A stretch of DNA of 64,000 nucleotides from an uncultured Aeromonadaceae bacterium (GTDB taxonomy: Bacteria; Pseudomonadota; Gammaproteobacteria; Enterobacterales; Aeromonadaceae): the NCBI GenBank assembly GCA_945957385.1, contig CAMFKP010000006.1, positions 1 to 64,000 of the forward strand, in the 5' to 3' direction. Shown here one piece after another: positions 3,713 to 56,304 of this stretch. Position 1 is the first letter of the stretch, and each line of letters starts with the position of its first letter. The translations under genes and the position numbers were made by a program. The notes below the pieces were generated by a model, which searched no databases, was not told where the DNA came from, and saw only the letters and a list, made by a program, of their open reading frames with translations.

Positions 3713-3804
3713 GGGCCGGCAGAAGGGCTGGATGGCCCTTCTATGATTGCTGGCCAGTATACCGAGTTTCGATGACCATAGCCCAGCATTTAAGCATGTC
3801 GTCC

Positions 3805-3987
3805 CTAGAGTGACGGCTTGTTGAAACGGTCCCGATCACCGGGGTTTAACGGGCCTATGTCCTCCTGGCGACGACCATCGCCCTCGCGTCGATCCTCTTT
3901 GTCTGGTTCCCAGCGGATCTCGAGACGCCGATCCGCCTGTTGCCGCCGCTGCTGGCGGCGTCGCTCTTTGACTGCTCTGTCGGCCAT
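3805..3987 (-). CDS. Small highly charged hypothetical protein (60 aa)
   Basis: Internal ATG of the track ORF preceded by AGGAGGT; product MADRAVKERRRQQRRQQADRRLEIRW... Confidence 0.6.
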   Translation of the reverse strand: MADRAVKERRRQQRRQQADRRLEIRWEPDKEDRREGDGRRQEDIGPLNPGDRDRFNKPSL

Positions 3988-50099: not shown

Positions 50100-51455
50100 A
50101 TGTTCAAGTCACTCATCAGCCACAAACTCACACTGCTGTTCCTGCTGTTTCTACTGCTACAGTTGCCGCTGCACAGCCTGCAGTCACTGACCTACGAACG
50201 CCAGTCCTACCGTAACCAGGCGCTGGAACAGATCAGTGCCAGCAGCAGCGGACCACAACGCCTGGTCGGGCCCATCCTGGTGATCCCCTATCAGCAACAG
50301 GAGAACCAATACAACGAGCAGGAGGGCAAATACCACGTCATCGTCCAGCAGCGCCAACTGCTGCTGTTGCCGGAGCAGCTCACCGTCAACAGCACGCTGC
50401 AGGTGGAGAGCCGGCAGCTCGGTATCTATCAGGCGCAACTCTTCAATGGCCCGCTGCAGCTGAGCGGCCATTTTGCCGCCGATGGATTGGCGCCACTGCT
50501 GCAAGATGAGCAGATCGCAATCGGGACCCCCTATCTGACGGTGCTGGTGACCGATGCCCGCGGTCTGTTGCAGGTGCCACGCCTGAAGTGGGGAGACGCC
50601 AGCCTGCCGTTCCAGCCCGGCGCACGCCTTGGCAGCCGCGAACAGGGGATCCATGCGCCGGTGTCACTGGCCACCCTGCAGAGCGGGCACAGCCAACCCT
50701 TTGCCTTCGAGTTGACCTTGCAGGGCAGTGGTAGCCTGGAAATGGTGCCTGTCGGCGCCAGCAGCACGCTGACGCTGCACAGCAACTGGCCCCACCCCAG
50801 CTTCATCGGCCAGTTCCTGCCACGTGAGCGCCAGATCGACAGCCATGGCTTCCGTGCGCATTGGGAAAGCAGCTGGTTTGCCAACAACCTGCAAGAGCGG
50901 ATCCAGGAGCTGGATCAACGCGGAAGCCAGGCGTTGCCAGCCTTTACCGTCAGCCTGATTGAGCCTGTGGACCACTATCAGCAGAACAACCGGGCGCTGA
51001 AATATGCCGAGCTGTTTATCGGCCTGACGTTCCTCAGCTTCTTCCTGTTCGAACTGGTGAAACGCCTGCGCCTGCACCCGATCCAATACGCGCTGGTTAG
51101 CCTGGCGCAGATCGTGTTCTATCTGGTGCTGCTGGCGCTGTCGGAACAGATTGGCTTCAGCCTGGCCTATCTGCTGGCCAGTATCGCCTGCGTCGGCTTG
51201 CTGAGCTTCTATGCCTGCTTCCTGCTCGGTAGCCTGCTGCGCGGCCTTGGCTTTGCCTGCCTGTTGAGCCTGCTCTACGCCATCCTGTACGGGCTGATGC
51301 AGGCCGAAGATTTGGCGCTGTTGCTGGGATCCGGTCTGCTGTTTATCGCCCTGGCGCTGGTGATGGTGATCACCCGACACGTCGACTGGTACCGTCTGGG
51401 ACGACGCCAGGCCGGTGACGACACGGCGCAGGACGATCCCGGCACTGCCGCCTGA
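50100..51455 (+). CDS. creD: Inner membrane protein CreD
   Basis: SYRNQALEQISASSSGPQRLVGPILVIPY; IEPVDHYQQNNRALKYAELFIGLTFLSFFLFEL. Confidence 0.93.
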   Translation: MFKSLISHKLTLLFLLFLLLQLPLHSLQSLTYERQSYRNQALEQISASSSGPQRLVGPILVIPYQQQENQYNEQEGKYHVIVQQRQLLLLPEQLTVNSTLQVESRQLGIYQAQLFNGPLQLSGHFAADGLAPLLQDEQIAIGTPYLTVLVTDARGLLQVPRLKWGDASLPFQPGARLGSREQGIHAPVSLATLQSGHSQPFAFELTLQGSGSLEMVPVGASSTLTLHSNWPHPSFIGQFLPRERQIDSHGFRAHWESSWFANNLQERIQELDQRGSQALPAFTVSLIEPVDHYQQNNRALKYAELFIGLTFLSFFLFELVKRLRLHPIQYALVSLAQIVFYLVLLALSEQIGFSLAYLLASIACVGLLSFYACFLLGSLLRGLGFACLLSLLYAILYGLMQAEDLALLLGSGLLFIALALVMVITRHVDWYRLGRRQAGDDTAQDDPGTAA

Positions 51456-51475
51456 TGCCGGCGGCCGTCACAACC

Positions 51476-51495
51476 GGGGCACCTTGCGGTGCCCC
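51476..51495. terminator. Hairpin between convergent creD and glmU
   Basis: GGGGCACC-ttgc-GGTGCCCC. Confidence 0.55.
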
Positions 51496-51509
51496 TGGTG
51501 TAGTGCGGT

Positions 51510-52874
51510 TTATTTCTTGATTTTCACCGGTCGCTGCCAGTTGGCGACATGGCGTTGTGGCACCCGGGTGATGACCAGCTCATTCTCGCCCACTTCCCGC
51601 GTGACCGTGGTGCCAGCGCCGATGGTCGCCCCTTTACGCACTGTGACCGGCGCCACCAGCTGGGTATCGGAACCGACGAAGACGTTATCCTCGATCACCG
51701 TTTTATGCTTGTTGGCCCCGTCATAGTTACAGGTGATGGTGCCGGCACCGATGTTGACGTCGGCACCGATGTCGCTGTCGCCCAGATAGGAGAGATGGCC
51801 GGCCTTGGTGCCGACGCCGAGACGGGCATTCTTCACCTCGACAAAGTTACCGACATGCACGCCATCGGCCAGCTCGCAGCCGGGACGCAGACGGGCAAAC
51901 GGGCCAATCGTGGTGCCACGGGCCAGTTGTGACGCCTCGATCACCGTATAGGGACTGATGATGCTGTCATCGGCGATGGAACAGTCTTTGAGCACACAGC
52001 CAGCACCGATCTGCACGCGGTGGCCGAGCGTCACCTGGCCTTCGATGATGACGTTGGCATCGATGATCACATCTTCGCCGCAGCTCAACTCGCCGCGCAG
52101 ATCAAAGCGCGCCGGGTCGAGCAGAGTCACGCCATCGAGCATCAACTGCTGGGCCGCACGCTGCTGATAGAAGCGCTCCAGCGCCGCCAGCTGGACACGG
52201 TTGTTCGCCCCTTCGGTCTCGCGGGCATCGCTGGCCTGGGCAGTGACAATGGCGGCACCGGCATGATGAGCGGCGGCGATGACATCGGTCAGGTAATACT
52301 CGCCCTGGGCGTTCTGGCAGGTCAACCCGGCCAGCCAGCCCTTCAACTTGCCCGCCGGCGCCACCAGTACCCCAGTGTTCACCTCGCGGATCGCCAACTG
52401 CTCGGCCGTCGCATCCTTCTGTTCGACGATACCGACCACGGCACCCTGTTCACGCACGATGCGGCCATAGCCGGTCGGCTCGTCCAGCGTCACCGTCAGC
52501 AAGCCGATGCCGCCCTCCGGCTGTACTGCCAACAGGCGTTGCAGTGTCGCCGCGGTAATCAGCGGGGTATCACCGTACAACACCAGCACCTTGGCATCGT
52601 CGGGGATCGCCGGTGTCGCTTGCGCAACAGCATGGCCGGTGCCGAGTTGTTGCGCCTGCAGTACCCAGTGCACGGCACTGTCAGCCAGACGCTGCTGCAG
52701 CAGTTCACCACCGTGGCCATAGACCAGATGGACAGCCGCCGCGCCCAGCGCCTCGGCGGTGGCGATGACATGGCTGACCATGGGACGACCGGCTACCGGG
52801 TGCAGCACTTTCGGCAGCGAGGAGCGCATGCGGGTACCCTTACCCGCGGCGAGAATGACGACGTGTAGAGACAT
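51510..52874 (-). CDS. glmU: Bifunctional UDP-GlcNAc pyrophosphorylase / glucosamine-1-phosphate acetyltransferase
   Basis: [32 protein letters not shown] and left-handed beta-helix C-terminal domain. Confidence 0.97.
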
Positions 52875-53031
52875 AGACCTATCCTTTGCGCAACATGAGC
52901 GTTCACTGCGCGGCATGATACCGCAACTCCACTCGCTCTGCCTCGGTGCTTCCGTCAACGTACAAATTGGTTAAGTTGCACCAGATTAGCCACTTATCAG
53001 CGTGCAATGGCCAGCTTTGTGGTCCGAAAAG

Positions 53032-53060
53032 GCCAGCCAAACCGCCGTTTAAAGGCTGGC
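53032..53060 (+). other. Leader hairpin upstream of porin
   Basis: GCCAGCC...GGCTGGC. Confidence 0.5.
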
Positions 53061-53110
53061 ACGACTCCTGCTGTAACTTTTTTGCAACAACCCATATCCC
53101 TGGCACCGAT

Positions 53111-53150
53111 GCCCACCCATCCTCAACGGATGCGGTGGGCTTTTTATTTT
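53111..53150 (+). terminator. Strong intrinsic terminator directly upstream of porin start (attenuator or sRNA terminator)
   Basis: GCCCACCCATCC-tcaac-GGATGcGGTGGGC then TTTTTATTTT; ends about 23 nt before the ATG. Confidence 0.8.
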
Positions 53151-53172
53151 CAACCGCAATGGAGTGCATCTC

Positions 53173-54384
53173 ATGATCTCTCGATCCACCCTGTCACTGC
53201 TGATTACCGCCACCTTGGCCACCACAACACCGCTGCAGGCAGAAACATTAGCTGAAGGCATCGCTTCCGCCATCAAATGGGGCAATGCCAGCGTCAGTGA
53301 ACGTTATCGCTACGAATACGTCGATCAGGAAGGCATTGCCAATTTCGCCAACGCCTCGACCTTGAAATCCAGGTTCACTTGGAATAGCGGCACAGTCGCC
53401 GGCATTAAAGGGCTATTTGAGGTCGATAATGTCACCAGCATCGGCGACGATCGCTATAACAGCACCGTCAATGGCCGCAAGACCTACCCTGTGGTTGCCG
53501 ATCCCGAAGCAACGGTAGTTAACCAGATAGCGCTTGGCTATAGTGCCGAAAAGTGGAACGGCTTAGTCGGACGCCAACGGATCAAGCAGGGTAATGAACG
53601 TTTCGTTGGCAGTGCGGCCTGGCGCCAGCTGGAACAAACCTTTGATGCGGCCCACGTGATCCTGGTGCCGGACACCCGTTTTACTCTGGACTATGCCTAC
53701 AGCTGGCGTATCAATACCGTGTTTGGTCCGGATAACCCGAACGGTCAACTGGACGGTGACTTTCACCTGCTACGTACCGATTACCAGCCGAATGGTAATC
53801 ACGCGCTAGCTGGTTTTGCCTACCTGCTGGACTACAACCAACCGGCAACAAATTCAGCCAACACTTACGGCGTCGAGTATACCGGCAACCTGCTGGATCG
53901 TCTGAAAGCCCATCTAAGCTACGCACGTCAATCCGATAGTGGTGCCGCACCGGTCGATTACAGCGCCAACTACTATCTGGCCGAACTGACCGCCTCCTGG
54001 CATGGTTATTACCTGAATCCTGGCTACGAAGTGTTGGGCTCGGATGATGGCAAAAAAGGTTTTGCCACACCGCTGGCCTCATTACACAAGTTTCAGGGCT
54101 TTGCCGATAAGTTCCTAACTACGCCGAAACAGGGGATCCGCGACAGCTATCTGACACTGGGCGGAAAGAAGTACCAATGGGAATTTGCAGTCACCTGGCA
54201 TGACTTCAACAGCGATGAAGGCGATCTGGATCTGGGGCATGAGCTGGACCTGATAGTCAGCCGGCCGATCAACAATTATCTGAGTGCCCTGGTCAAATAT
54301 GCGCACTATCAAGGCAGCCATGAGAGCGCCCCCCTGGCGAAGGACACAGATAAGGCCTGGATGATGTTGACCGCAACATTTTAA
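53173..54384 (+). CDS. Outer-membrane porin, alginate-export/OprD-like beta-barrel
   Basis: Signal peptide; SVSERYRYEYVDQEGIANFANASTLKSRFTWNSG; YGVEYTGNLLDRLKAHLSYARQSD; terminal Phe. Confidence 0.75.
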   Translation: MISRSTLSLLITATLATTTPLQAETLAEGIASAIKWGNASVSERYRYEYVDQEGIANFANASTLKSRFTWNSGTVAGIKGLFEVDNVTSIGDDRYNSTVNGRKTYPVVADPEATVVNQIALGYSAEKWNGLVGRQRIKQGNERFVGSAAWRQLEQTFDAAHVILVPDTRFTLDYAYSWRINTVFGPDNPNGQLDGDFHLLRTDYQPNGNHALAGFAYLLDYNQPATNSANTYGVEYTGNLLDRLKAHLSYARQSDSGAAPVDYSANYYLAELTASWHGYYLNPGYEVLGSDDGKKGFATPLASLHKFQGFADKFLTTPKQGIRDSYLTLGGKKYQWEFAVTWHDFNSDEGDLDLGHELDLIVSRPINNYLSALVKYAHYQGSHESAPLAKDTDKAWMMLTATF

Positions 54385-54401
54385 GTTCTCGCCGAGAACA
54401 T

Positions 54402-54428
54402 AAAAAAAAGCGGCCCGCAGGCCGCTTT
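54402..54428. terminator. Bidirectional terminator between porin and atpC
   Basis: AAAGCGGC...GCCGCTTT with A- and T-rich flanks. Confidence 0.85.
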
Positions 54429-54444
54429 GTTGTCAGCAGAGGAA

Positions 54445-54870
54445 TTAGCGGTAGTTTCTGCGGGTGAGTTCCACCACACGCAACTGCGCCATGGCCTTCG
54501 CCAATTCGGCGATGGCCTCGGCATAGTCGACATCGCCAGACTTGCCGTTCATCTTCTCCTCGGCTGCGCGCTTGGCTTCCTGAGCCTTGGCTTCATCGAT
54601 ATCCGCCGCACGGATAGCGGTGTCCGCCAGCACAGTCACCGTCTCGGGTTGCACTTCCAGCATACCGCCAGAGATGTACATCACTTCCTCGACACCGTGC
54701 AGCTTGATCAGACGCACCAGACCAGGCTTGATGGATGTCAGGAGCGGCGCGTGACCATGACGGATGCCCAGCTCCCCTTCCGCACCTGTGACCTGAACGG
54801 ACTCAACACGACCGGAGAACAACATCTCCTCGGCGCTGACCACGTCCAGGTGGAAGGTAATCTCAGCCAT
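54445..54870 (-). CDS. atpC: ATP synthase epsilon subunit
   Basis: [50 protein letters not shown]. Confidence 0.98.
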
Positions 54871-54888
54871 AGATCCTCCTGCCCGGGA

Positions 54889-56304
<1,416 letters not shown>

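Follow-up and report, generated by a model that had tools for sequence, protein, structure and literature searches.

A GC-rich hairpin with a T tail stands directly in front of a porin start codon in the window (the whole 64 kb stretch of DNA analysed here), and the question raised by this locus is whether the hairpin is an attenuator, which must be overcome by antitermination, or the 3' end of a free-standing small RNA. We assign a probability of about 85% to an attenuator of a specific type, in which the region 53057-53172 would be a sigma54-driven transcription-attenuation leader of the porin belonging to the ANTAR (NasR/NasT) class. The porin gene (53173-54384, plus strand) encodes 403 aa of the Alginate_exp family (Pfam PF13372, E 1.8e-6), for which a sequence search gave no solved structural relative, and its Shine-Dalgarno sequence GGAG is read at 53161-53164 on the same strand. 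In the window it is located alone between glmU and atpC; in two Tolumonas loci (L101 and L103) the porin is between cheB and atpC, sharing the atpC side with the window and not the other side. The hairpin had previously been placed between glmU and the porin, which is right for its intergenic position but imprecise, in that glmU (51510-52874, outside the element) is on the minus strand with its start at about 52874. Since glmU is divergent from the porin, the terminator can act only on a plus-strand transcript begun within about 240 nt upstream.

The intrinsic terminator is a stem-loop at 53111-53140 (plus strand; 12 bp with one bulged C, GCCCACCCATCC-TCAAC-GGATG(C)GGTGGGC), followed at 53141-53150 by the T-tract TTTTTATTTT, which is likewise read from the plus-strand sequence and ends 22 nt before the porin ATG. 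With a folding energy of -22.9 kcal/mol (z = -5.3 relative to dinucleotide-shuffled sequences) and this spacing, the original description of a GC-rich 12-bp hairpin with one bulged C and a T tail just before the porin start is confirmed. A simple terminator scan gave no match at 53111-53140, presumably due to the bulged C.

A second hairpin, GGC[ACCGAT]GCC (53102-53113, plus strand), has the features of a P2-type ANTAR recognition hairpin, namely a stem of at least 3 bp, a hexaloop with A at position 1 and G at position 4 (A1/G4), and a C:G closing pair. These features mark the element recognised by ANTAR antiterminators such as NasR, NasT, AmiR and EutV; a hairpin of this type was obtained by SELEX for NasR (PMC7496416) and has likewise been described for EutV (PMC3369931). 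In isolation, the window's loop can shrink from a hexaloop to a tetraloop by A1-U6 pairing. Since the 3' arm of P2, GCC, is also the start of the 5' arm of the 12-bp terminator (3 nt in common), the two structures are mutually exclusive. When the window leader was shuffled 3000 times, terminators by a loose rule arose in 112 shuffles and a terminator with an overlapping hexaloop hairpin in none. Across 1.87 Mb (counting both strands) made up of the window, L098 and 80 porin loci, the combined motif gave 35 matches; most of these matches precede porin or nitrate-type genes, and exactly one of them is in the window.

Upstream of P2, a sigma54 -24/-12 promoter, TGGCACG-actc-CTGCT (TGGCACGACTCCTGCT), is predicted at 53057-53072 on the plus strand. 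It has the GG N10 GC core in a TGGCAC/TTGCA context, with correct spacing and one mismatch to the consensus TGGCACG-N4-TTGCW, and the pattern TGGCACRNNNNYTGCW has this single match in the 64 kb window where 0.18 are expected. From the promoter position, the transcription start is predicted at about 53083-53084. A sigma54-like site is found ahead of all 11 homologous porin leaders scanned, with 29-83 nt from the -12 element to the loop. A search for NtrC sites found weak sites only; the possible half-site TGCACCA (52977-52983, plus strand), in which 10 of the 14 positions of the full consensus are matched, is suggestive only. The upstream hairpin at 53032-53060, which the sequence-only reading had assigned to the same leader, does exist (-14.8 kcal/mol, z = -2.9), but a place in the leader RNA is improbable: since it overlaps the -24 box and is ahead of the predicted start, it is probably outside the transcript. 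No counterpart of it was seen in the Tolumonas leaders.

The canonical ANTAR substrate consists of two hexaloop hairpins, P1 and P2 (PMC7496416, PMC3369931). In 52870-53102 we found no P1, defined as a second A1/G4 hexaloop hairpin with a stem of at least 3 bp, and by the strict rule there is none in the Tolumonas porin leaders. The nrtA leader of the same genome carries one, CCTC[AACGGC]GAGG. Since P1 is absent from the porin leader though present at nrtA, we call the former a P2-only variant, which is predicted to work like an ANTAR attenuator but falls outside the canonical two-hairpin class. For NasR, binding to P2 alone is about twelvefold weaker than binding to P1P2 (PMC7496416), and the porin leader may therefore be recognised more weakly or differently. 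Near-miss P1-like hairpins were seen by eye in two marine porin leaders (L020 and L027), and these are not claimed as P1. In the window, the Shine-Dalgarno sequence falls within the loop of a very small hairpin, GCA[ATGGAG]TGC (53156-53167), and the equivalent in Tolumonas L100 and L101, GTA[ACGGAG]TAC, again has an A1/G4 loop with one compensated pair; since the fold is weak (z +0.47), this mini-hairpin may be due to chance.

Conservation was examined with porin homologues gathered on protein similarity alone. Homologous porins of Tolumonas, Corallincola and marine gammaproteobacteria, located in differing gene neighbourhoods, are preceded by a sigma54-like promoter and then a hexaloop hairpin that overlaps a terminator, so that the hairpin passes the check on relatives that had been proposed for it. 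In ten homologous loci, nasT, the gene of an ANTAR response regulator, is directly 3' of the porin; in two of these (L022 and L027) the next genes are a nasS-like gene and then nrtA, the latter with a second hexaloop-terminator leader. Among porins next to nasT, the nine whose upstream DNA could be read all have the leader motif, compared with 3 of the 69 other porin loci (Fisher 1.2e-9, a kind of value that overstates independence since homologous leaders have a common ancestry). The three motif-bearing porins without adjacent nasT are from Tolumonas (two) and Corallincola (one), and the porin-bearing Tolumonas-like genomes, searched as a whole, have one ANTAR gene each, elsewhere in the genome.

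Over a set of 34 leaders, the terminator stem varies in sequence at nearly every position while its pairing is kept, and the P2 stem also shows pairing-preserving changes, such as GAGC/GCTC in L023. This set was partly gathered with the motif pattern, and loop positions 1 and 4, which were imposed by the scan, are no evidence themselves. Between the window and Tolumonas, the hexaloop, the terminator and the following porin are conserved, unlike the 5' part of the leader; with the window leader as query, a search of the DNA of 61 relatives gave short pieces and no full-length match. Six Rheinheimera loci (L085-L089 and L095, at about 800-950) have a hexaloop-terminator leader several kb ahead of the porin homologue and a longer ANTAR protein (about 430 aa, a NasR-like length) further downstream. 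In L040 (about 3780-3850), a locus that showed no ANTAR gene, a porin homologue is preceded by a terminator-like stem with a hexaloop lacking G4; decay of the leader is possible there.

The window's genome encodes one ANTAR protein (185 aa, PF03861, 66.8 bits), and its gene is in the nrtA-nrtB-nrtC-nirB / nasA cluster on contig C50. Matches were obtained between this protein and NasR (4akk) as well as two response-regulator antiterminators, 1s8n and 6wsh; it has no recognisable receiver domain and no NIT domain match. A search for NasS in this assembly, which is 94% complete, had NrtA as the sole match; nasT beside a NasS sensor gene is seen in the marine relatives and was not found here. The nrtA and nasA leaders of the same genome each have a sigma54-like site and a hexaloop hairpin with an overlapping terminator. 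Searched genome-wide, the pattern matched three sites: the porin leader, the nrtA leader and a site inside a transporter-like coding frame (C13:47640), the last of which was judged to be chance. Aeromonadaceae nrtA leaders were gathered irrespective of the motif; it occurs in 24 of the 25 genomes with an ANTAR gene and in one of the five without, that one being 87% complete. Four loci of one genus of the family (g2; L130, L134, L135 and L136), from genomes without an ANTAR gene, have nrtA with a sigma54-like promoter and without the terminator and hexaloop, an apparent loss of the attenuation step.

These data strongly support the earlier proposal of an attenuator needing antitermination, and a specific mechanism, regulator class and promoter can now be predicted from sequence. 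Under nitrogen limitation, sigma54 polymerase would start near 53083, with NtrC as the presumed activator. By default, the terminator with its T-tract (53111-53150) would form and an RNA of about 67 nt would be released. In the presence of nitrate or nitrite, the ANTAR protein from contig C50 would bind P2 and hold the 5' arm of the terminator, whose formation would thus be prevented, and polymerase would read on through the porin gene. Nitrate or nitrite, or another substrate needed with them, would then cross the outer membrane through the porin, and the pore would be made only under nitrogen scarcity with nitrate available. At somewhat less than even odds, we tentatively propose that single-hexaloop ANTAR antitermination, with only about 20 nt before P2 and in departure from the two-hairpin rule, couples the porin to the nitrate regulon as a nitrate/nitrite-uptake pore.

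The main competitor is that the terminator ends a free-standing, trans-acting sRNA of about 67 nt made from the sigma54 promoter, the porin having its own promoter or being rarely expressed. A short transcript is indeed bracketed by the promoter and the terminator, and terminated leaders may double as sRNAs. However, a scan of 51000-56000 found no sigma70-like site, the T-tract is only about 22 nt away from the ATG, and what is conserved between the window and Tolumonas is the hexaloop, the terminator and the porin rather than the 5' part of the RNA. A conserved RNA body or a known family would mark a trans-acting sRNA, and neither was found: Rfam searches at the gathering threshold and at a permissive E-value gave only sub-threshold matches. 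These, Bp2_287 (on the other strand) and a fluoride riboswitch (12.9 bits), were judged to be chance, and sigma54 sRNAs of the Qrr, CrcZ and GlmY types are without Rfam support. We consider the sRNA explanation improbable, and the suggestion of a stand-alone sRNA end between glmU and the porin is unsupported, while termination should still give the RNA of about 67 nt.

Attenuation might instead be exerted by a riboswitch, by an RNA-binding protein of another family or by translation of a leader peptide, as might be thought from the short predicted leader before the terminator and the missing P1. We rate this lower still, as no Rfam riboswitch exceeds the threshold, the predicted segment of approximately 19 nt before P2 is too short for an aptamer and offers no ATG for a leader peptide, and the A1/G4 hexaloop together with the ANTAR-gene linkage specifically fits an ANTAR protein. 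Intergenic terminators are common, and an unregulated terminator, constitutive or a relic, could insulate the porin from upstream transcription; but the upstream gene is divergent, so that no gene transcript has to be stopped there, and conservation across lineages is seen for both the sigma54 site and the hexaloop that overlaps the terminator, which makes this the least probable of the three.

If the ANTAR attenuation leader is real, a signal and a promoter class can be assigned to an uncharacterised porin family, together with a likely substrate theme, and the link to nitrate has come from RNA logic and not from the gene neighbourhood. Part of the Alginate_exp-type family would then let nitrate or nitrite in through the outer membrane, and this step is usually omitted from accounts of bacterial nitrate assimilation. 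The missing P1 would also provide a clean natural test of the two-hairpin requirement for ANTAR proteins.

The switch type itself is known. Our literature search found no porin described as a target of an ANTAR protein or NasT and no P2-only form, a result that does not prove their absence. The NalA leader of Pseudomonas nirBD, which is regulated by NasT/NasS, is similar in being started by sigma54/NtrC, in having a terminator that NasT, an ANTAR protein, opens and in serving nitrate genes (PMC12830290). It differs in that NalA controls nitrite reductase, whereas the window leader precedes a porin, no NasS was found in this genome and the ANTAR protein is without a recognisable receiver. The nasF leader of Klebsiella oxytoca, regulated by NasR, shares nitrate-responsive attenuation and an A1/G4 P2 that is closed by a C:G pair and overlaps the terminator (PMC7496416, PMC3369931), but it has both P1 and P2 where the porin leader has P2 only, and NasR is a one-component NIT-ANTAR protein where the protein of the window's genome has 185 aa and no NIT domain match. 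In the eut leaders of Enterococcus faecalis, two-hairpin ANTAR attenuation by EutV also extends to ef0120, which lies away from the main locus (PMC3369931), as is proposed here for the porin; these leaders differ in their ethanolamine signal, in the use of a phosphorylated response regulator and in the presence of P1.
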